NCBI RefSeq assembly: GCF_032854445.1
Contig: NC_088295.1
Span: 44,317,385-44,381,384, forward strand
Source: Liolophura sinensis
Lineage: Eukaryota > Mollusca > Polyplacophora > Chitonida > Chitonidae
Length of the DNA: 64,000 bases
Reading direction: 5' to 3'
This document shows positions 1,570-52,700 of this stretch, in pieces. Each line of letters starts with the position of its first letter. The stretch's first letter is position 1. A program made the position numbers and the translations under genes. The notes beneath the pieces were generated by a model. The model did no database searches and was not told the origin of the DNA. It saw only the letters and a list, made by a program, of their open reading frames with translations.

Positions 1570-3620
1570 AGTGTATTTAGGATCAAACCTGTCCCATGAT
1601 CATGATGAAATGTGCAGATATTGGCTGGTGTGTAGAGCCAGACACTGTGGTGATAAACTAGGTGTCTTATGGAGTGATGTAACAATAGGAATGTGTGTAG
1701 GTGTCAAACTCCTCCCATGGTTGTGATAAAATGTATGTTGGCTGTCGTGTAGAGCCAGACACTGTGGTGATAAACTAGGTGTCTTATGGAGTGATGTAAC
1801 AATAGGAATGTGTGTAGGTGTCAAACTCCTCCCATGGTTGTGATAAAATGTGTGTTGGCTGCCGTGTAGAGCCAGACACTGTGGTGATAAACTAGGTGTC
1901 TTATGGAGTGATGTAACAATAGGAATGTGTGTAGGTGTCAAACCCCTCCCATGGTTGTGATAAAATGTGTGTTGGCTGTCGTGTAGAGCCAGACACTGTG
2001 GTGATAAACTAGGTGTCTTATGGAGTGATGTAACAATAGGAATGTGTGTAGGTGTCAAACCCCTCCCATGGTTGTGATAAAATGTGTGTTGGCTGCCGTG
2101 TAGAGCCAGACACTGTGGTGATAAACTAGGTGTCTTATGGAGTGATGTAACAATAGGAATGTGTGTAGGTGTCAAACTCCTCCCATGGTTGTGATAAAAT
2201 GTATGTTGGCTGTCGTGTAGAGCCAGACACTGTGGTGATAAACTAGGTGTCTTATGGAGTGATGTAACAATAGGAATGTGTGTAGGTGTCAAACTCCTCC
2301 CATGGTTGTGATAAAATGTGTGTTGGCTGCCGTGTAGAGCCAGACACTGTGGTGATAAACTAGGTGTCTTATGGAGTGATGTAACAATAGGAATGTGTGT
2401 AGGTGTCAAACCCCTCCCATGGTTGTGATAAAATGTGTGTTGGCTGTCGTGTAGAGCCAGACACTGTGGTGATAAACTAGGTGTCTTATGGAGTGATGTA
2501 ACAATAGGAATGTATGTAGGTGTCAAACCCCTCCCATGGTTGTGATAAAATGTGTGTTGGCTGTCGTGTAGAGCCAGACACTGTGGTGATAAACTAGGTG
2601 TCTTATGGAGTGATGTAACAATAGGAATGTGTGTAGGTGTCAAACCCCTCCCATGGTTGTGATAAAATGTGTGTTGGCTGTCGTGTAGAGCCAGACACTG
2701 TGGTGATAAACTAGGTGTCTTATGGAGTGATGTAACAATAGGAATGTGTGTAGGTGTCAAACTCCTCCCATGGTTGTGATAAAATGTATGTTGGCTGTCG
2801 TGTAGAGCCAGACACTGTGGTGATAAACTAGGTGTCTTATGGAGTGATGTAACAATAGGAATGTGTGTAGGTGTCAAACTCCTCCCATGGTTGTGATAAA
2901 ATGTGTGTTGGCTGCCGTGTAGAGCCAGACACTGTGGTGATAAACTAGGTGTCTTATGGAGTGATGTAACAATAGGAATGTGTGTAGGTGTCAAACCCCT
3001 CCCATGGTTGTGATAAAATGTGTGTTGGCTGTCGTGTAGAGCCAGACACTGTGGTGATAAACTAGGTGTCTTATGGAGTGATGTAACAATAGGAATGTGT
3101 GTAGGTGTCAAACTCCTCTCATGGTTGTGATAAAATGTGTGTTGGCTGCCGTGTAGAGCCAGACACTGTGGTGATAAACTAGGTGTCTTATGGAGTGATG
3201 TAACAATAGGAATGTGTGTAGGTGTCAAACCCCTCCCATGGTTGTGATAAAATGTGTGTTGGCTGTCGTGTAGAGCCAGACACTGTGGTGATAAACTAGG
3301 TGTCTTATGGAGTGATGTAACAATAGGAATGTGTGTAGGTGTCAAACTTCTCCCATGGTTGTGATAAAATGTGCGGATATTGGCTGTCGTGTAGAGCCAG
3401 ACACTGTGGTGATAAACTAGGTGTCTTATGGAGTGATGTAACAATAGGAATGTGTGTAGGTGTCAAACTCCTCTCATGGTTGTGATAAAATCTGCGGATA
3501 TTGGCTGTTGTGTAGACTCACTATGGTGATGTACTAGTTTGCTTATGGGGTGAAGTCGCAGTAGGAATGTGTGTAGGTCCCATGGCCATGATAAAATCTG
3601 CAGGATATGGGCTGATATGT
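1570..3620. repeat. 117-bp minisatellite
   Basis: About 16 tandem copies of a 117-base unit; nearly identical in the core (1640-3460) and decayed at the right edge (3470-3620). Units differ at a few fixed sites, for example CTCC/CCCC before ATGGTTGTGATAAAATG and GTC/GCC before GTGTAGAGCC, so sub-families are interleaved. Because 117 is a multiple of three, the minus strand is open for about 614 codons (1600-3444) as a 39-residue repeat. No known protein repeat was recognised. Confidence 0.95.
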
Positions 3621-11192: not shown

Positions 11193-11295
11193 TTTGATCG
11201 TTGCTATATGAAAGGCTCCATGATCATGGTCTTTGTAGGTGATTACATGTGGCATCACTGTACCAGTCGAGACTGTCAAAACATCAACCACACCC

Positions 11296-11915
11296 AGTGC
11301 CCAGATGTGTACTTCAACAGTCAGTGTATCACCCAGTGCCCTGGTGTGAACTTCAACAGTCAGTGTATCACCCAGTGCTCGGTGTGAACTTCAACAATCA
11401 GTGTATCACCCAGTGCCCTGATGTGAACTTCAACAGTCAGTGTATCACTCAGTGTCCTGGTGTGAACTTCAACAGTCAATGTATCACCCAGTGCCCTGAT
11501 GTGAACTTCAACAGTCAATGTATCACCCAGTTCTCTGATGTGAACTTCAACAGTCAGTGTATCACTCAGTGCCCTGGTGTGAACTTCAACAGTCAGTGTA
11601 TCACCCAGTGCCCTGGTGTGAACTTCAACAGTCAATGTATCACCCAGTGCCCTGATGTGAACTTCAATAGTCAGTGTATCACTCAGTGCCCTGGTGTGAA
11701 CTTCAACAGTCAATGTATCACCCAGTGCCCTGATGTGAACTTCAACAGTCAGTGTATCACCCAGTGCCCTGATGTGAACTTCAACAGTCAGTGTATCACT
11801 CAGTGCCCTGGTGTGAACTTCAACAGTCAGTGTATCACCCAGTGCCCTGGTTTGAACTTCAGTAGTCAGTGTATCACCCAGTGCCCTGATTTGAACTTCA
11901 ACACCCACACCATCC
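11296..11915. repeat. 39-bp minisatellite in the SOBP 3' UTR
   Basis: About 16 tandem copies of a 39-base unit containing AACTTCAACAGTCAGTGTAT and CACCCAGTGCCCTG. It begins about 100 bases after the SOBP stop codon and ends about 30 bases before an AATAAA signal, so it should be transcribed as 3' UTR. One early unit (near 11375) is two bases short. The plus frame from 11249 reads as a 13-residue repeat with two cysteines (CITQCP[DG]VNFNSQ); the minus strand is also open (11360-12052). These frames follow from a unit length divisible by three and are not called as genes. Confidence 0.93.
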
Positions 11916-11949: not shown

Positions 11950-13213
11950 ATATTTTTACTGGCACTTTCACTACATCTGTGCCCTGTATGAATATGTCCA
12001 GGCTGCTGGCTAGTGTACACCACATCAGCTGGACCATACGAAATTGAATCAAAGCCTTAGCTGGATTATGGATTTGTATTTATATGTGCCATTTCATCTC
12101 TTCATGAAGTCCTTAGGGATGATGAAATCATTATTGATGAATGCGGTAATAGTGCTGATTTCAACAGCTGTGATGCTTCAAGTGCCATTACAGGCAGAAC
12201 TTTAGTGCTTTTGGACAAAGGCTGTATAAATGGCCGGAAGAGGATATTAGTTAAAAATACATGAATATATATATGTATATATACATGTATTTATACATGT
12301 ATTCATGTAGACTGTTTGCATGTAATAATTGTAGTTCTCTGTATTTTTACAGAACACCAACATCTATTTTGCATGATTCGTGGTGAATTAAGTATGAAAC
12401 CAAAGTGCTAAGATATACAAAATGAGACTTCATTTGAATAATTAAAATAGCCTGATTTTGATGAGAATAGAATGTTGGAGTTAATCCGACAAGCAAACTG
12501 TTATGAATATGAACCTGCATGGTTATAGTTTAGTTTCCATCTGGATATAAAGCATGAGATGGTACATAAGCAGCATTAGCTCCTCCCTACTGTGTGAAAG
12601 TTAGCGACACATTTCAAGACTGGTGAAAATGAGGAAAAACTCAATGATGCTGGATGAATTCTCGTATTACTTTGTACATGTAAACCTTCTATTGTGACTG
12701 TTAAAGATTAAACATATTTCACCTGTTATTTATTCTGGTATTATGGATAATAATATTCCTTAGCCCAGTGCCCTCTATTTTTGTAATTTTGAAGATATAG
12801 TGATAGTTTTTCGACCAGTTTTCCGTGTAGATGTATGCCTTGTGTCACTTAGATGCAGTTATTCTCCTCTTTTCTTTTCCCCACTTTTCTTTCTCCCACT
12901 GAAATCCCTGTGGAATTCATTAAATTGAACATTGATCATATTTTCTTTTTGATGACAATTCATCATCATGAATCATCCCCTACAGGAAGAAAATAGTGTC
13001 ATTTGTTCTGGAAATCTGAATTACTGTTGATAGAAGCAAATCTATTGAATGCGTGTAAAGCTACACTGTGTGATAGTCCACAGGGACATCATGCATGTAC
13101 AGGGATAAGACCCATGCCATGGTCAACACCATAGCATCTGATTTATTTTAGGCAGTTTCACTGTTTACATTTAATAATGCCAGCCAAATGATAGCCCCAC
13201 CAGTGATGTACTG
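11950..13213. other. Intergenic stretch, nothing recognised
   Basis: AT-rich. The only structure noticed is an AT-rich palindromic patch at about 12258-12311 (TACATGAATA ... TATTCATGTA) with alternating AT/TG/CA steps. No exons were supported. Confidence 0.5.
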
Positions 13214-13227
13214 CAGATGCCAGCTTA

Positions 13228-13492
13228 TTTATTTGATTTATTTGATTGGTGTTTTACGCCATACTCAAGAATATTTCACTTATACGACGATGGCCAGCAT
13301 TATGCTGGGAGGAAACCGGGCAGAGCCCGGGGGAAACCCACAACCATCTGCAGGTTGCTGACAAACCTTCTCACTTACGGCCGGAGAGGAAGCCAGCATG
13401 AGCTGGACTTAAACTCACAGCGACCACACACGAGAGGCTCCTGGGTCATTACACTGCGCTAGCGTGCTAACCAACTAAGCCACGGAGGCCCC
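13228..13492 (-). repeat. Full-length tRNA-derived SINE with target duplication
   Basis: Read on the minus strand it starts GGGCCTCCGTGGCTTAGTTGG (13492 downward), with a tRNA-like A box (TGGCTTAGTTGG). A B-box-like GAGTTTAAGTCC follows, then a conserved body (CTGGCTTCCTCTCCGGCCGT; TTTCCTCCCAGCATAATGCT). It ends GGCGTAAAACACCAATCAAA with an AAAT-rich tail. A 14-base target duplication, CAGATGCCA[GA]CTTA, lies at 13214-13227 and 13493-13506. This shows retroposition. The conserved body resembles, from memory, a broadly distributed invertebrate SINE superfamily such as MetaSINE; that name is unchecked. Confidence 0.9.
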
Positions 13493-16031: not shown

Positions 16032-18308
16032 TCAGTAAATCCTTCGTCTGTTCCTCACCCCCATGGGCGGTCCACCCTGGGGGATAGTTATGGCAATATC
16101 CAGATAATCCCCGATCTGAAATCCTTTAGACTGGAGGGATGCTGCGTCATCGGCCCCTTTGTGCCCAGAGCATGTTGTGCCTATGTCACGCATACGGTAC
16201 GCAGGGCTTCGTGCGTCAGGATAAACTACAGCAAAGTCAAAAATGGTGCCCTTTCTTCGGGCATCTGGGTTAACTTCCTTCACCAGGCTCGTCAGCTCCT
16301 TGAGGGTGGCATCCATCCTACATTGATATAATTTATTTTTTTAAAAGTGCTACTCAGCTGAAAGGAATACTCTTGGCATGTAGAAGACATTCCAAGATAA
16401 CAACCTTCTGCCACAGCTAAATGAACAAATTACCTAGACGAAGGGACACTACTCTGTTCTATCCGTCAATAAAGAAGTATAACTTAATATACTGCTGGGT
16501 CTGCGTCATCACAAAAAATGAATGGACTGGTCTTTCGCTGAAGGCCAACCTGGGCTCAACATTTCATCTAATTCCATATATAACTTTTTCCATAAAATTA
16601 TCCCCATACAGACATACAAAACAAACACTGGCAAAAAAATAACATACTCGACAGAGATAAAAGTACATGAACATAATATATGCTACACACACATAATTAA
16701 CAGTTCTGCAAATTATTTGTTGATTTGATTGGTGTTTTACGCGCTACTAAAGAATATTACACTTATATGACAGCGGCCAGCATTATGGTGGGAGGAAACT
16801 GGACAGAGTCCAAGGAAAACCCATGACCATCTGCAGGTTGCTGACAGACCTTCCCATGTACAGCCTGAGAGGAAGACAGCATGAGTTGGATTTGAACTCA
16901 CAGCGACCACATTGGTGGGAGGTACCTGGGTCATTGCAGTGTTCACGCTGACATGCTTACTCCCTTGTCTACTCTCTGCAGATTATAAAGAAGCCTTGTC
17001 TAAAACCTTGATTTGAAGCTGAGGGAGAAAGCACAGAGAAGATTTTCGTGGACTACACAGCAAGAATTTTCCTGAAAAGTGACTAAACAGACAGAAACCC
17101 TGACCTGATCTGTAACTTGCAACAGAGAAGCCAAGTAGAGAGTTCAATTTAATATGACAAGCCTTGAAATTATGAAATAAAAACCTTTTCATGACTCATC
17201 ATGATTTGCTCATTAACTTACCATGTGTAGATCTGCAGTTCATTTGCAGGTGTATTTCCTCGGGCAAATTCACTTAACATGTGATGTCTGCCGGTGTTAC
17301 AAAACACTCGCAACAGAAGCGGGCATGTCTGAAACAGGAGAGAGGAAAGGTTGCAAAATACAAATGGATGGGCAAGTGTGAAAGACGAAAGAGGACAGGT
17401 TACAAAATACCAGTGGATGGGCATGTGTGACAGAGAAGAGAGGACAGGTTGCAAAATACAAATGGATGGGCAAGTGTGAAAGACGAAAGAGGACAGGTTA
17501 CAAAATACCAGTGGATGGGCATGTGTGAAAGAGAAGAGAGGACAGGTTGCAAAATACAAATGGATGGGCAAGTTTGAAAGACAAAAAGAGGATAGGTTAC
17601 AAAATACCGGTACCAGAGGATTGGCATGTGTGAACGAGGAGAGAGGAAATCTAGAAAAATTACAGATTGAATACAAGTGGATATGCATGTGCGACAAGAG
17701 CCAGTGATTAAAATATCTATCATGATTCGTATGTCTTGCCTCAGGCTCTCATGTCCTGAGGAAAGTAGTAGGAAAAAGTCTGCGTCCAATCAAATATCAT
17801 TACCATCTCACACGACACAACAGCATGGCTGGCAATGGCAATATAAATAATAAAAATAAACAGTAGGGGTAGCGTGTTTGAGACAGGGGAGACGAAAGCT
17901 TTTGATATTGTATATCAGCTTCGTCATGTAGGCCTATAGTCTTGGAAGCTGAAGCATATCACTAAATGGACTGGTGGACAGGGATTAACGACAACCACGT
18001 CCGTAAGCTGCAAAGGACAGCACACTGAGAACCGAGAAGTGCAGTGTAAGTCAATGTTTGTATGTAGAGCTAATATTACATTAATGTTGTTGTGGTTCTA
18101 TTGTGGTGCACATGTCGATGTTGTTGTTGTTGCAAGGAAAACTGGCACGGACACGTTCATAATCTATTTTGTATTCATTGTGCAGTAAGCGCAAACGACG
18201 TTCATAAATGAGAATATAGTAGAATAAACAACATTAAACCTTTTCTCTATCGATAGGCTTCTCTGGCTCCCTGCTTTCCTCAACAACCATGGATTCTAAA
18301 GTCGACAT
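16032..18308 (-). CDS. SAP18: SAP18 (Sin3-associated polypeptide 18), complete, three exons
   Basis: Small ubiquitin-fold protein of the Sin3-HDAC corepressor and of the ASAP/PSAP complexes linked to the exon junction complex; nuclear. Coding exons: 18240-18308, 17222-17328 and 16032-16317. They join in phase to about 153 residues, the length I recall for human SAP18. Exon 1 starts at ATG 18308 (MSTLESMVVEESREPEKPID); EPEKPIDREK is a family match. Exon 2 begins TCPLLLRVFCN and ends ELQIYTW. Exon 3 begins MDATLKELTSLVKEVNP and includes LQSKGFQIGDYLDIAIT, among the most conserved SAP18 segments. Splice borders: AAAAG|GTTTAA, TTTCAG|ACATG, ACATG|GTAAGT, TGTAG|GATGG. Intron 1 (17329-18239) carries a 49-bp minisatellite abutting the acceptor; intron 2 (16318-17221) carries a SINE. 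Confidence 0.97.
16717..16975 (-). repeat. SINE in SAP18 intron 2, with target duplication
   Basis: Same SINE family, antisense to the plus strand and therefore in the sense direction of SAP18. It runs from the tail TTGTTGATTTGATTGG to a degraded tRNA-like head (GACATGCTTACTCCC). The target duplication CTGCA[AG]ATTAT lies at 16706-16716 and 16976-16986. Confidence 0.85.
17329..17690. repeat. 49-bp minisatellite abutting the SAP18 exon 2 acceptor
   Basis: Anchor words GGTTGCAAAA and GGTTACAAAA alternate at 17349, 17398, 17447, 17496, 17545 and 17594, exactly 49 bases apart. The array is therefore a 49-bp unit with a 98-bp dimeric higher order. On the minus strand each unit reads pyrimidine tract, then CACACATGCCC or CACACTTGCCC, then a TTTTGTAACC or TTTTGCAACC stretch. 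The last unit merges with the true acceptor, which reads CTCTCCTGTTTCAG|ACATGCCC. All other units have CAC or CAA in place of CAG. The array appears to derive from the splice junction itself. Confidence 0.9.
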
Positions 18309-21340: not shown

Positions 21341-22500
21341 ATATCACACCATACATCATTATATCAGTCATCCTCTCAGCACATTCATCTTCCCCTCCGA
21401 GCATCCATCATCCTCTCAGCCCACACATCATCCTCTCACCGTATGCATCCATCATCCTCTCAGACCACACATCACCCTCTCACCATATGCATCCATCATC
21501 CTCCCAGCCCACACATCATCCTCTCACCGTATGCATCCATCATCCTCTCAGACCACACATCATCCTCTCACCATATGCATCCATCATCCTCTCAGACCAC
21601 ACATCATCCTCTCATCATATGCATCCATCATCCTCTCAGCCCACACATCATCCTCTCACCGTATGCATCCATCATCCTCTCAGACCACACATCATCCTCT
21701 CACCATATGCATCCATCATTCTCCCAGCCGACACATCATCCTCTCATCATGTGCATCCATCATACTCCCAGCCCACACATCATCCTCTTACCGTATGCAT
21801 CCATCATCCTTTCAGCCCACACATCATCCTCTCAGCCCACACATCCTCCTCTCAGCCCACACATCATCCTCTCATCATATGCATCCATCATCCTCTCAGC
21901 CCACACATCATCCTCTCATCATATGCATCCATCATCCTCCCAGCCCACACATCATCCTCTCAGCCCACACATCATCGTCTCAGCCCACACATCATCCTCT
22001 TATCATATGCATCCATCATCCTCCCAGCCCACATATCATCCTCTCACCGTATGCATCCATCATCCTCCCAGCCCGCACATCACCCTCTCAGCCCACACAT
22101 CATCCTCTCAGCCCACACATCATCCTCTCACCATATGCATCCATCATCCTCCCAGCCCACATATCATCCTCTCACCGTATGCATCCATCATCCTCCCAGC
22201 CCACACATCATCCTCTCACCGTGTGCATCCATCATCCTCCCAGCCCACACATCACCCTCTCACCATATGCATCCATCATCCTCTCAGCCCACACATCACC
22301 CTCTCACTGTATAAATCGATCATCCTTTCAGCCCACACATCATCCCCTCACCATATGCATCCATCATCCTCTCAGCCCACACATCACCCTCTCACTGTAT
22401 AAATCGATCATCCTTTCAGCCCACACATCATCCCCTCACCATATGCATCCATCATCCTCCCAGCCCACACATCATCCTCTCATCATATGCATTAATCACC
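21340..22500. repeat. 44-bp minisatellite
   Basis: Tandem array of a roughly 44-base unit combining CACACATCATCCTCTCA, CC[AG]TATGCATCCATC and ATCCTC[TC]CAGCC, with shortened units between 21800 and 22130. Because 44 is not a multiple of three and the plus strand has almost no stops, all three plus frames are open over hundreds of codons (21158-22553). The frames read as shifted versions of the same 44-residue pattern, the signature of a repeat, not a protein gene. Confidence 0.93.
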
Positions 22501-28700: not shown

Positions 28701-31700
28701 TGGCAATCAAAAGAGAATTCAAAGAGCATACTGCACAGTGAAGGCTGAATATCNNNNNNNNNNNNNNNNNNNNNNNNNNNNNNNNNNNNNNNNNNNNNNN
28801 NNNNNNNNNNNNNNNNNNNNNNNNNNNNNNNNNNNNNNNNNNNNNNNNNNNNNNNNNNNNNNNNNNNNNNNNNNNNNNNNNNNNNNNNNNNNNNNNNNNN
28901 NNNNNNNNNNNNNNNNNNNNNNNNNNNNNNNNNNNNNNNNNNNNNNNNNNNNNAAGCAATACAACAGGTGCTATGTAAGTTGTGATTGTAAATGTCACTA
29001 AGTGGAAGAATTACCAATAAAAACACTGCTGTCACTGCTAGATATAGTTGACATTCTATATGCACCACAGGTTGCTGACAAATCTTCCCACGTACGGCCG
29101 GAGAGGAGGCCAGCATGAGCTGGACTTGAACTGAAAGCGACCACATTACGACCATCACAGAGGTTTTACATGACTTGATTGCAGATCACTTGCCTTATAC
29201 CATAATGATATAAACAAGGAGCAGAACATGGTGGAAAGTTTGCCAGTTAAATGTCAAAGGTCAGTGGCGTATATATATACATCCAGTGCATTTATATGGC
29301 ATGAACACCAATCAATTAATCACTCAATTCACTGAACAGATATGATGCAGTAACACAAGGCTGTTCACTGACCTGACAAAGGTGTGGGAGGCCTGGGGAA
29401 GAGTTTGTGTGAGAGGGACTTGGAGGAAGGCATGTTGTCATAGATCACATTCAGACGGGTGTATATGTACTGGTCCTCACCCAGTGATGTCTGTCAACAA
29501 AATACAGTGAACCATTTGCAGCATTTTTATTTTATTTTTGGGAACACAAATTCTGTATTTGCACTGAAATTTCGCCCCAAAAAGTGTATTTTTAAAGACA
29601 AACAAAGGTCTCAAGATACTACTTTTGGTACTGAAACTGACATTTTCATAATAAAATAATATCAAATCACAATATACCTTAGAACTCTCATGAGTAACTT
29701 TGTCATGGAAGTGTTTGGTCAATTAATCATAAGGGTTCTATTATCAATGTTTTGTTAAAATTATCTCTTTAACAGTCAGTCCAGACTTTACCTGTCAATC
29801 TTAGCAGAAATCATTTACCGTATTATATTCAGTAGAAGCTGTGTTTTTTCCCTAACAAATGCACACAATTACATATGAACAAAAAACTAAAAAATATTTA
29901 TCTAGTACCATACATTCTGCAGATTAAATTATGTGCACCTTCACTCGTTATAGGTCAAAATAATGGTGTTCAGTTTTTTTCACTATTCGTTACATCTAGA
30001 CTATGTTAGTGGAAGCTGTATACAAGCTTATCACTGTAATCAAAAGCAAACATGCAATTTGAACTTTTTGAATAAAATAAAGTTTATTATTTCACTGATA
30101 AAAAGCAATTAAATCTTTCCTGTTCAAGAATAAAAAGTATATAAACTGTAACCCATGCAATGACTTCAGTCGTGTTTCAGAAGAATCATAAGCAAACATT
30201 ATATTTTGGTACAAATAGTGGACATAAACAAGAAACAAATTGAAATGCAACAGAATTAAGATCCTACCAAAAGATAACCATCCTGTGGGAAAAAAAAAAA
30301 CAACAGAAATACAAGTTAACACTACTTAGCATTTCACAATAATTGACCAGGGCATTTCGATGGCTAAGCGGCTTACCATGTTTTCTCTTGAGATTACTGG
30401 ACCTGTGTGCTAACATCTAGCTCTCAAAACCTCAGTTATTTAGTCATGTGACAAGGTTGTTTAGCTACCCAGGAAGATACACCAGTTTTCTCTGTACAGT
30501 TTTCTCGACCAATAAACCTCACCCCAATCTTTTAAGTGAAATATTGTCGAACACAGCATAAAACACATTCCAAGAAACAAAGTGCAAAATAAATATGGCA
30601 TTCCACAAAAAGTTTATCCCTTTTTGGTTTAATGTCTTCTTGCACTCTGGCAGCTCATTAAGTAAATAACCCATGTTAATAAGATGTCCAGCATTTGACC
30701 GACTGACCAACCATGTTCTTCATATAAAACTGTTTGTTATATATAAAAGGTGACCAGAATGATTTTGCAGAGGAAAAATCATAAAGTAAAATATAGCTGA
30801 CAAACACATAAATCTTCAGAACATGCAAATCAATCCTTCAGCTATGTAATTTTGTATTTAAATACTGGGGCGACATCAATGTACTTGGTCAGTTCACTAC
30901 CAATTGGCCTTTAATTGATTTTGCCTTTCTACTTTTCTAGTATGACGGAATGGAGTGCACTCAGTTATGCATGTATGTGGGACTTCATTTTATTCCAAAA
31001 CCCAAGACTCAATATTTAAATTGCCAAACATAGTGCAAATAATGTGTCTATGTCATGCCTGTTCAAATGCATGCATATAATGAATAATGTAGGACATGCA
31101 ATCCACTTCTATGCTGAGTACATACATGTACTACAATACTACGTAGGTGCAGAGCAATACATATACACATACTGTTAAGCATTATTCTGATATGTTACAG
31201 CACTGTGGTTACAAAGCTTACAGAGTAATTGTTTGATAAAACAAGAATGATCTATTAGCTGCAGCTGTATATACAAATTGCACTGACGCACTATATCAAT
31301 AACTATAGAACATTAAAACTAAAATAGTCATCTTGTAAAGATATATCTTGTGTAAACTTCTATATATAATAATAAACAGGCAAGGGATTTATGCATGGCC
31401 ATCTATCTAAACTGCTCAACTTCTCAAAGGCTTACTTCATTTTTAGGGTATTTCTTTATTTCATCTGAACGTGGAGTGGAACGTTCAATGGGAAAAATAA
31501 ATCGCCTGGCTGATGAGAATGGGATGTTGTTTTTTGGAGGAGGCACCACTTTCTTCTTGAGCTGAAGTTTATCCATCAATGCAGGGTTTACTAACTATTT
31601 ATTTGCTGATCACTGGTATCATCAATTCTGTTTTGCACTAAGATTTGTTCTTTCATTATCTTTTTATGTCACAGAGTACAACTACACCTGTTTCTGTCAA

Positions 31701-49700: not shown

Positions 49701-52700
49701 ATTACATATATAAATATTAAAATACACTGATTCTATAGACAACTGACTTAACTTCTTGCAGCTGAATAAGATAAAGCTAAAATTTCCACATGATGTGTCA
49801 TCAGCCTTTGTCTTAAAGAAGAATGAAAGTTTTACATAGATCTCACGAACTTATGATGCTCTTATTCTGGTTTCATTTTACATGGTAGAATTTACCAGTT
49901 TTAAGCAATTCATCCTCTTCATCTTCATCTGACTCCAATTCATTGAGATGAAGATAAGCATCCAGAGAGGAACTCAATCCTACTTTCGCTTTCAGTTTCT
50001 CCAGCTTTGTGGCCTTCTCGGTCAGCTGTTCAGCAGCTGAGCTGTCTCCACTTTGGATTCCTCATACTTTGATGTGATGCTTTTGATAGCCTTTTTCATA
50101 ACTTTGACATCATTTCTTGTCTGGTCAAGTGTGGCTAAAACTTTCCTGTGACAAGAATGCAATATTGAGGCACACATGTAATAATGCTAATATCAACACA
50201 TACACATGTACATGCCAGAATATTATACAATTTCCATGAACACCTTTGGCAGAAATATTGCCTTTGGATTACAGAAATGATTTAAACAATTTCTTCCAAA
50301 AAGTTTAATTTCTTACTTTAGCCGCTCAACCTTTTCTGTCCTCTCTTCAGCCTTCATTGTATAGAGACTCTTGAAGCAGTCCATAAACCTGGCATAAGTT
50401 GTAGGGCCCACAAATGTATCATTCTTTGAAGGCTGGCTCAGACCTTTGTGTCGAAACCTGAAGAAAAGAGAAAGACAGTCATAGGACAGGTAATGTTCTG
50501 CTCTGTTCTCTACAGAGAAAAATATCAGACAAATAACACTTGAGGCGGTATTCCTCGACTATTCAGCAAGTAAGGTAACCTATCCACGGTGGACCCACCA
50601 ATCAGAAGACTAGAATTTTCTCTGCACGGCCAGTCTTTGCTCCTGGGGCACAGCAATATGACTCAGGAGCCTCTCACAAATGTGGCTTCCTCTCCGGCCG
50701 TACATGGGAAGGTCTGCCAGCAATCTATGGATGGTTGTGAGTTTCCCTTGGGTTCTGCCCTGTTTCTTCCCACAATAATGCTGGCTGTTGTCGTAAAAGT
50801 GAAATATTCTTGTTTGTTTCTGTGATTCTTTGTTTCTACTCAGGGTAGCTAGAACATTATTCCCAGGTCGCTCTGGTTAAACTCACTTGATATTCTCCTG
50901 CAAGATGACTTTTGAGTACGGCAAGTTAGGTACCATGACACTCTGCAGTTTCAGCTGGTCTTTTCTTCTTCTCACTGACCCTGACCTGGTTGACAGGAAT
51001 CTCAGCACTGAGATCACCAGCCATTGTCAGCTGTTTACAGTCCCGTAAGGCAAAACTATGGATGTTGGCCAAGCAGGTCATCACATTCTCTCTGAAATAC
51101 ACAAAGGTAAATAAACAGACAAGGCACAAAGTATGTGGTGGATAGATTATATTTTCTCAAAAGGACACCATAGCATATTAATCAACGGATCAAAAAGCAC
51201 AAAATACATAGTGGAAGCATAATTTCTCTGAAGGACAAGTACAACCAAAACAATATAAGGCTCTCACTACTTGATGAGAGTCTTGTAAAACACATATATC
51301 ACAACAGAACTTTTAATTCCAAATTTCATTTTCAGGCCCTAAAGACCAGTAACAATAAGCTTGTACCAAACAGCAAAACAAATCAATTCTGTTCATCAAT
51401 ATGCAGTAGTGCAATTTAAAAACACTTTTATTATTAAAAACTGAATGACAAAAAAGTAAGAGTATACCCAAATTGTAGAAATTGGTCTGTGCCCAAGTGT
51501 TTGCTGATGTAGTACGAGGCCTCTCCTAGCAGAGATTCCTGAGGCCAGTCACACAGCCAGTTGATCTGACAGGCACTGAGTAGCCCAGGGAAGTGACTGA
51601 AACATACAGGTCAGGTCAAACAAACTTATCAATTGTGCATCCAACATTTTACAGTTTTATTTATGGGGGGGGGGGGTTACTGCAACATACAATTTCACAG
51701 AGAAAATTGATCCTTATCCATGTTTTCTTGAAAGGTTTTATGATGTACTAGTCATTAACCTGGTTGGAAATAAACTGTAAGCATACAACATAAACATTAC
51801 CATTCAAAGACAACCGAAGGGTGCAAAATTCAGTGCCTGAAAAACATCCCAGTCCATTTAAAAACAATTGCAAATATGCAACAGCTGAATCGTTCAGCTG
51901 CATTAGTGTTTCATGTTGTCTTGCATGCCTTTCCCTTATCATCTGAATGGCAGATGTTAAAAGATTTTAGAATAACAGATACAGCAACTTGGAGCCTCTT
52001 TAGCGCTGTTAAAAATTCCTTAGGAATCCTGCTGTGATGGAAAGTACGTAGAAGAAGCACATCCAGAATAAATGAAAGTACATTTCACGTATGACTCAGT
52101 CGGACATTTTGCCTTATTCTGAGAGTTCTGTTAATCTTTAAAAGGTGTTTTGAGAATTGTTTAGGAAGATGATATCAAGCTGGAAAGTTTCACCATGAAA
52201 AATAATTTTTTGGGGGTGAAATATAAGGCCATATCAATCAATCAAATCAATCTCAAATTTTCTTGATGCGTGTTAATACACACCTAGATGCCATCTCGAG
52301 AAGATAGTGGTCAGGTGGAAGACAGATGAGGATATGAAGATTCATCTTCACCCTGGATACGAAAAACTTCATGGGGTCTGTCAGCATGTTGGGATGCTCT
52401 CTCTTCAGCTGAGGGGTCAAGGCCTGAATACATAAATAAACATGTTTACATGTACATGTCAAGAATATGTATTTACCACATCCAAAAATATAACCACTAA
52501 AAATGACACCTGTCTTTTCTATTCTGATGCATGAATGTTATTAATGTGTACTTACACATATTTGTTCATGGTAGATTGACTATTACCGTAATAACCACCC
52601 TATTTGTTCTAATATTTGGGACACTTGGTGTGCTCATTTTAGCCAATATATATGTAATTCTAGCAGAATTATTGAGTTTGTTTTTATTACATGGTTAGAC

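Follow-up and report, generated by a model that had tools for sequence, protein, structure and literature searches.

In amphioxus, minisatellite-like tandem duplications that contain an intron-exon boundary, known as mirages, have been described in Adh3, in the globin genes BflGb6 and BflGb9 and in troponin C (PMC3087553), and similar duplications have been described in PGBD5 (PMC3902484). In BflGb6, the 3' end of an intron is reported to be duplicated together with the 5' portion of the exon that follows it (PMC3087553; PMC3902484), which is the arrangement that we find in the SAP18 gene of a mollusc, the chiton Liolophura sinensis. Besides the host, the systems differ in unit length, which is 49 bp in SAP18 compared to the 10-72 bp given for Adh3 and the 150-160 bp given for BflGb6. 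They also differ in their splice signals: many, although not all, of the amphioxus repeats are described as keeping AG or GT, whereas none of the seven extra SAP18 units keeps AG. Keeping these signals was not taken as a defining property of mirages. The properties that we did use are found at SAP18: the array is head-to-tail, its unit draws on both sides, intron and exon, of the neighbouring authentic junction, and the array abuts that junction.

Human genes offer further comparisons. The 31-bp VNTR of CBS, c.1444_1467+7, comprises by its notation 24 exon and 7 intron bases and spans the donor boundary (PMC2630376). It is length-polymorphic and lies on the donor side, whereas the SAP18 array lies on the acceptor side; the donor-side arrays that we describe below from the chiton genome are closer to CBS. 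Units of the IFI6 (G1P3, 6-16) minisatellite are reported to serve as splice donors (PMC4526556, citing Turri 1995), and those donors are used, in contrast to the extra SAP18 acceptors, which are without AG. A long AG-free stretch before the acceptor, like that of SAP18, is found in the AG exclusion zones of PTB exon 11 and GABBR1 exon 23, which are not described as repeats in the available text of PMC1431707; in SAP18, the upstream branch-point-like motifs are only candidates for such distant branch points.

The SAP18 array is of a kind already known, in a lineage for which no earlier report was found: among the titles and abstract openings of the open-licence literature searched, there was no report of junction-spanning arrays in molluscs. 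We consider it very probable that the array is a junction-derived minisatellite of the amphioxus mirage kind, and that such arrays have been born recurrently at junctions in this genome.

Results

The SAP18 gene lies on the minus strand of the window, by which we mean the whole 64,000-nucleotide stretch analysed (C1:44317385-44381384 of a searched genome of 609,464,459 bases in 632 contigs). Exons 2 and 3 are recognised by the Pfam PF06487 profile. The features of the locus, in coordinates of the window, are as follows.

18240..18308, minus strand: coding part of SAP18 exon 1, which reads MSTLESMVVEESREPEKPIDREK; its last bases, GAAAAG, are followed by GTTTAATG
17329..18239, minus strand: SAP18 intron 1, 911 nt, with predicted donor AAAAG/GTTTAATG and predicted acceptor TTTCAG/ACATG
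17605..17706, minus strand: degenerate distal units, whose pseudo-acceptors are CAC (17630) and CGC (17691); an AG stands between them (17652/17651)
17359..17604, minus strand: five clean extra units of 49, 49, 49, 49 and 50 nt, T-type (TTTTGTAACC) alternating with C-type (TTTTGCAACC); their pseudo-acceptors are CAC in four and CAA in one
17331..17650, minus strand: AG-free run of 320 nt upstream of the SAP18 acceptor
17329..17358, minus strand: intron part of the junction unit, consisting of TTTTGCAACC, a pyrimidine tract and the authentic acceptor CAG
17222..17328, minus strand: SAP18 exon 2, 107 nt, encoding TCPLLLRVFCNTGRHH..., which starts ACATGCCC and ends ACATG, followed by GTAAGT
16032..16317, minus strand: SAP18 exon 3 with the stop codon (Pfam PF06487, E 1.2e-21)

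Exon 1 was assigned by what we take to be its likeness to SAP18 N-termini. Exon 2 matches PF06487 with an E value of 8.5e-12 and the PDB SAP18 sequence 4a8x with an E value of 3.7e-12, with TCPLLLRVF conserved. Across the four PDB SAP18 sequences, presumably human or mouse, PLLLRVF is invariant; three of them have TCP and one has TSP. The splice sites are predicted from sequence and homology, and the predicted AG of the intron 1 acceptor is at 17330/17329. The predicted donor of the same intron (18230-18240) appears poor, being far from the GTRAGT usual at +3 to +6. The genome search found no paralogue or retrocopy of SAP18; exons 2 and 3 each match this locus only.

The preliminary description had reported a 49-bp array, built of 98-bp dimers, that reaches the exon 2 acceptor. 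Tandem Repeats Finder (TRF) recovers it at 17321-17607, with a period of 49 (5.8 copies, 83% matches) and over the same interval with a period of 98 (2.9 copies, 94% matches). The interval given earlier, 17222-17690, also spans exon 2 itself (17222-17328). On the minus strand, the units start at 17604, which carries a 1-nt insertion, and at 17554, 17505, 17456 and 17407, with the junction unit at 17358; farther out the array degenerates, to about 17706. Its last unit is the authentic exon 2 junction itself. The whole array was also considered as a dispersed repeat and rejected, since at the search sensitivity used its genome match was its own locus only. A SINE-like dispersed element (GGCCAGCATTATGGTGGGAGGAAAC...) was seen by eye at 16734-16950, 13178-13459, 50613-50876 and other places in the window, and also in another genomic locus, L079. 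The window holds four further large minisatellites, of 27 bp (54 copies, 1-1466), 117 bp (17 copies, 1621-3578), 39 bp (16 copies, 11291-11903) and 44 bp (25 copies, 21401-22492), the 39-bp one following a 688-codon open frame with zinc-finger-like cysteines.

The similarity of the units to the junction was measured over 38 nt, from TTTTG to the eighth exon base (30 intron and 8 exon nt), using the four indel-free units and leaving out unit 17604. Units 17554, 17505, 17456 and 17407 agree with the junction at 34, 31, 33 and 31 positions, respectively. Elsewhere in the window, away from the array region, this core is matched at no more than 24/38 positions. Against the C-type unit, the junction agrees at 26/30 intron positions and at all 8 exon positions, the latter encoding the conserved TCP. 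This supports the earlier proposal that the repeat arose by amplification of the end of the intron together with the opening coding bases of exon 2. Of 3000 random segments drawn from the window, 1 matched all 8 exon bases, ACATGCCC; when the start of exon 2 was recoded synonymously 3000 times, 358 versions did so, and most of the 8/8 match therefore follows from the encoded residues. Past exon position +8, a gapped extension is equalled by 208 of 2000 random continuations, and the similarity there is weak and not secure. An exact TTTTGTAAC at exon +25, which continues the C/T alternation, is suggestive of a further likeness to the array; such a 9-mer occurred in 224 of 200000 segments drawn at random, and since the window sampled includes the array itself, this figure is an upper bound. 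Since the exon bases within the unit encode the conserved TCP, the exon copy would be old and the array would have copied the exon, not the reverse, a polarity that rests on protein conservation and parsimony.

The six extra units had been described as having CAC or CAA where the real site has CAG. Five indeed have CAC and one CAA, and to these we add a seventh, degenerate unit with CGC; AG is present in 0/7 extra pseudo-acceptors, and CAG is at the junction only. Pyrimidines make up 15-16 of the 17 bases before the pseudo-acceptor in six of the seven extra units, compared to 16 at the real site. With both strands of the window considered, no real AG-free run is longer than this one of 320 nt; the two that come next in length (28744-28970) were discarded as runs of N. 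An AG exclusion zone is an AG-free stretch of at least 100-150 nt ahead of an acceptor, which this run exceeds. Branch-point-like TTGTAAC motifs, candidates chosen by a hand-made consensus score, lie at -72, -170 and -269 from the acceptor.

Parsimony on the five clean units gave 10 changes and a probability of 0.43-0.56 that no new AG would arise. With the degenerate units, which are poorly aligned, there were 33 changes and the probability was 0.06-0.15. With the junction row there were 45 changes and it was 0.02-0.07, a value that leans toward selection and counts changes on the junction branch. All of these values come from one tree, and only 0.6-3.8 AGs are expected from the 10-45 changes. 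When the 98-nt dimer was shuffled, 17% of the shuffles were without AG. The C and T units have CAC and further derived states in common, and the AG loss is therefore best read as one founder event; most likely, the disabling of every extra acceptor goes back to one founder mutation. An AG-less founder or selection had been offered earlier as alternatives. The shared derived states fit the former, which suffices, while selection on AG, the less likely of the two, did not reach significance for the extra units (P of no AG 0.06-0.56). As for the further suggestion that length changes could alter the polypyrimidine context, the last 30 intron nt, with the tract and the AG, belong to the junction unit and are thus unaltered by copy number, which makes such an effect unlikely. 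As read from the sequence, a change in copy number would gain or lose only the candidate TTGTAAC motifs upstream.

Genes elsewhere in the genome were surveyed at 60 loci, 30 with kinase and 30 with Ras matches. Arrays lie within 30 nt of a match end at two loci (L055 and L056), both of them Ras loci. Arrays cover 7.1% of the bases of the Ras loci and touch 2/60 match ends compared to about 5/60 expected; in the Ras loci, arrays thus border exon ends no more often than their density predicts. No array touches a match end at the 30 kinase loci, many of which have long open frames. At L055 (1691-2496), a 29-bp array runs up to the acceptor of a Rab-like exon (GTGAACAG/TTACAGATCTGG). Its unit is without a pyrimidine tract, and AG is present at the acceptor position in 15/29 extra units, so AG loss is not a rule. 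Together, SAP18 and L055, two loci, fit an AG exclusion that is confined to copies of a strong acceptor. The acceptor word TTTTTCAG repeated three times gave 173 matches in the genome compared to 31 for the reversed word, and an exon stood at the edge in none of the three arrays read. No second acceptor-side array clearly containing exon sequence was found in the loci examined. The TTTTTCAG array of L085 lies upstream of what looks like an acceptor in a guanylate-kinase-like gene, which we take to be ZO-1-like, and stops about 100 nt short of it. A separate observation is a row of eight haemocyanin beta-sandwich modules at C8:37880506-37891931, like a molluscan haemocyanin subunit.

On the donor side, L056 (contig C11) was retained for the content of its unit, which includes both the end of the exon and the donor, and not for its adjacency. 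The exon, which we presume to be Ral-like, is followed by a 34-35-bp array in which five units each hold the last 14 bases of the exon and the donor. Counting the authentic junction, the donors are GTGAGT in four units and GTGAAT in one, and GT is kept in 4/4 extra copies.

The genome was then searched for the donor word AGGTGAGT three times in a row with gaps of 10-40 bases, the control being the reversed word. There were 1007 matches compared to 341 for the control, counts that overlap within arrays and are not independent. Counted by hand among the matches listed, the first 31 Mb of C1 hold 13 AGGTGAGT arrays and 6 reversed-word arrays (P about 0.08). A second donor word, AGGTAAGT, likewise repeated three times, showed little excess (508 compared to 365 reversed); as with the acceptor word above, such counts overlap within arrays and are not independent. 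The 5' borders of 13 AGGTGAGT arrays and 7 control-word arrays were read. Five of the 13 start within an exon that is supported by homology, and their units carry the end of that exon with its donor. They are listed below with a sixth locus, L070, which is not among the five; agreement with the last 20 exon bases refers to the copies printed, and the fractions keeping GT are biased upward, all loci but L056 having been picked by the donor word.

L064, contig C1: ankyrin exon (E 9.8e-12); 17-19 of the last 20 exon bases agree; GT in 11/15 extra copies
L065, contig C1: presumed Mot1-type helicase exon (E 1.8e-18, aligned to the last codon); 18-20/20 agree; GT in 8/12
L066, contig C1: a different exon of the L065 protein, about 12 kb away (E 1.2e-10); 12-15/20 agree; GT in 23/29
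L071, contig C1: Fe_hyd_lg_C exon (E 4.4e-13); 16-20/20 agree, with 7 in one copy; GT in 12/12
L076, contig C1: 7tm_1 exon (E 2.9e-25); 15-20/20 agree; GT in 11/12
L070, contig C1: alpha-L-fucosidase exon (PDB E 1e-10, Pfam below the cut-off); donor and intron start repeated, GT in 17/18 copies

For L065, L066, L071 and L076, the exon-holding frame alone was scanned. We take the helicase-like match of L065 and L066 to be Mot1/BTAF1-like, and the name NARF is likewise our assumption. L070 was set apart because its copies hold only about the three last exon bases (8-11/20 agree). At L072, AG and intron bases alone are shared with the exon, which is without a Pfam match, and this locus is only suggestive of a junction array. 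At L067, L068, L069, L073, L074 and L075, no exon ending in the array's donor was found, and frames of at least 35 aa had no Pfam match; at L069, a frame that looks like an exon stops at GTAAGG a short way ahead of the array. None of the 7 control arrays had an exon at its border by eye, and Pfam matched none of the 11 open frames scanned in five of these arrays, L078 and L082 having no frame of 35 aa. The comparison of 5/13 with 0/7 gives a one-sided Fisher P of about 0.08, or 0.04 when L070 is counted, the control numbers being small. Judged from these sequences, donor-side junction arrays recur in this chiton, at the donor junctions of six other exons, which we see as a more interesting outcome than the AG loss.

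Discussion

We propose that the SAP18 array began with the tandem duplication of a segment that, as judged by sequence identity, took in about the last 30 bases of intron 1 and continued into exon 2 for 8 bases or more. Two copies of TTTTG(C/T)AAC, 54 nt apart, may have provided microhomology for the first duplication. AG would then have been lost once in one duplicate, and the AG-less 49-bp unit, later as the C/T 98-bp dimer, would have been amplified through ordinary minisatellite turnover, as suggested by the homogeneous middle and degenerate far end of the array. The extra units would be removed with the intron and the sole remaining AG used. Birth at splice junctions probably recurs in the chiton genome, given the six donor junctions above.

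Another possibility is that selection keeps the SAP18 array free of AG, in which case the array would act as an extended AG exclusion zone whose branch points lie far from the acceptor. By this logic, an AG in a unit would be the first after the branch point-like TTTTG(C/T)AAC motif and a strong tract and would be spliced to, inserting 49n bases and so shifting the frame except where n is divisible by 3. The 320-nt run, the longest real one in the window, the 15-16 pyrimidines of 17 at 6/7 pseudo-acceptors and the TTGTAAC motifs at -72, -170 and -269 all agree with this, and the tract-less acceptor-edge array L055 retains AG in 15/29 units, as the model allows. In humans, AG exclusion zones of 287-438 nt are reported to mark known or predicted distant branch points, and AGs put into such a zone impaired expression (PMC1431707). 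The low probability of no AG (0.02-0.07) obtained once junction-row changes are counted points the same way, but among the extra units alone it is 0.06-0.56, the shuffled dimer is AG-less 17% of the time and one founder loss accounts for all units. We regard selection as rather unlikely. Also doubtful is the broader proposal that chitons, like amphioxus, bear junction minisatellites genome-wide while purifying selection forbids AG in the SAP18 array, such that donor arrays may keep their signals and strong acceptor arrays must lose them.

The direction of copying could also be reversed, with an ordinary intronic minisatellite coming first and the acceptor region being overwritten by gene conversion or by growth of the array to the exon. 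The 26/30 agreement on the intron side is what this would give, but the 8/8 match runs into exon bases coding conserved residues, which is unexpected of an independent array, and we find overwriting improbable. An alternative transcript in which the array is translated, giving SAP18 a repeat extension, would be allowed by the exon 2 frame, which is open throughout the array for 176 codons (17221-17748, minus strand). However, an AG-less, pyrimidine-rich unit has few stops, and the other two minus frames are likewise open over the array (129 and 66 aa); with no start or promoter evidence and no Pfam match of the extension itself, this is highly improbable. Three 49-bp units would make an in-frame insertion within the open exon 2 frame. 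As for chance similarity between array and junction, the exon part is just 8 bases long and 358/3000 synonymous recodings match all of them, but agreement of 31-34/38 over the junction, in phase with the unit, where the best core match outside the array region is 24/38, makes chance scarcely credible. A junction-derived minisatellite is the reading that we prefer.

In the literature searched, junction minisatellites were those of amphioxus and a few human genes, and the finding of several in one chiton suggests that the process is wider. With their tandem series of donors and acceptors, the chiton arrays offer a natural test of how the spliceosome chooses among near-identical sites, and they can inform models of how introns are gained and of the effects of copy number on splicing.
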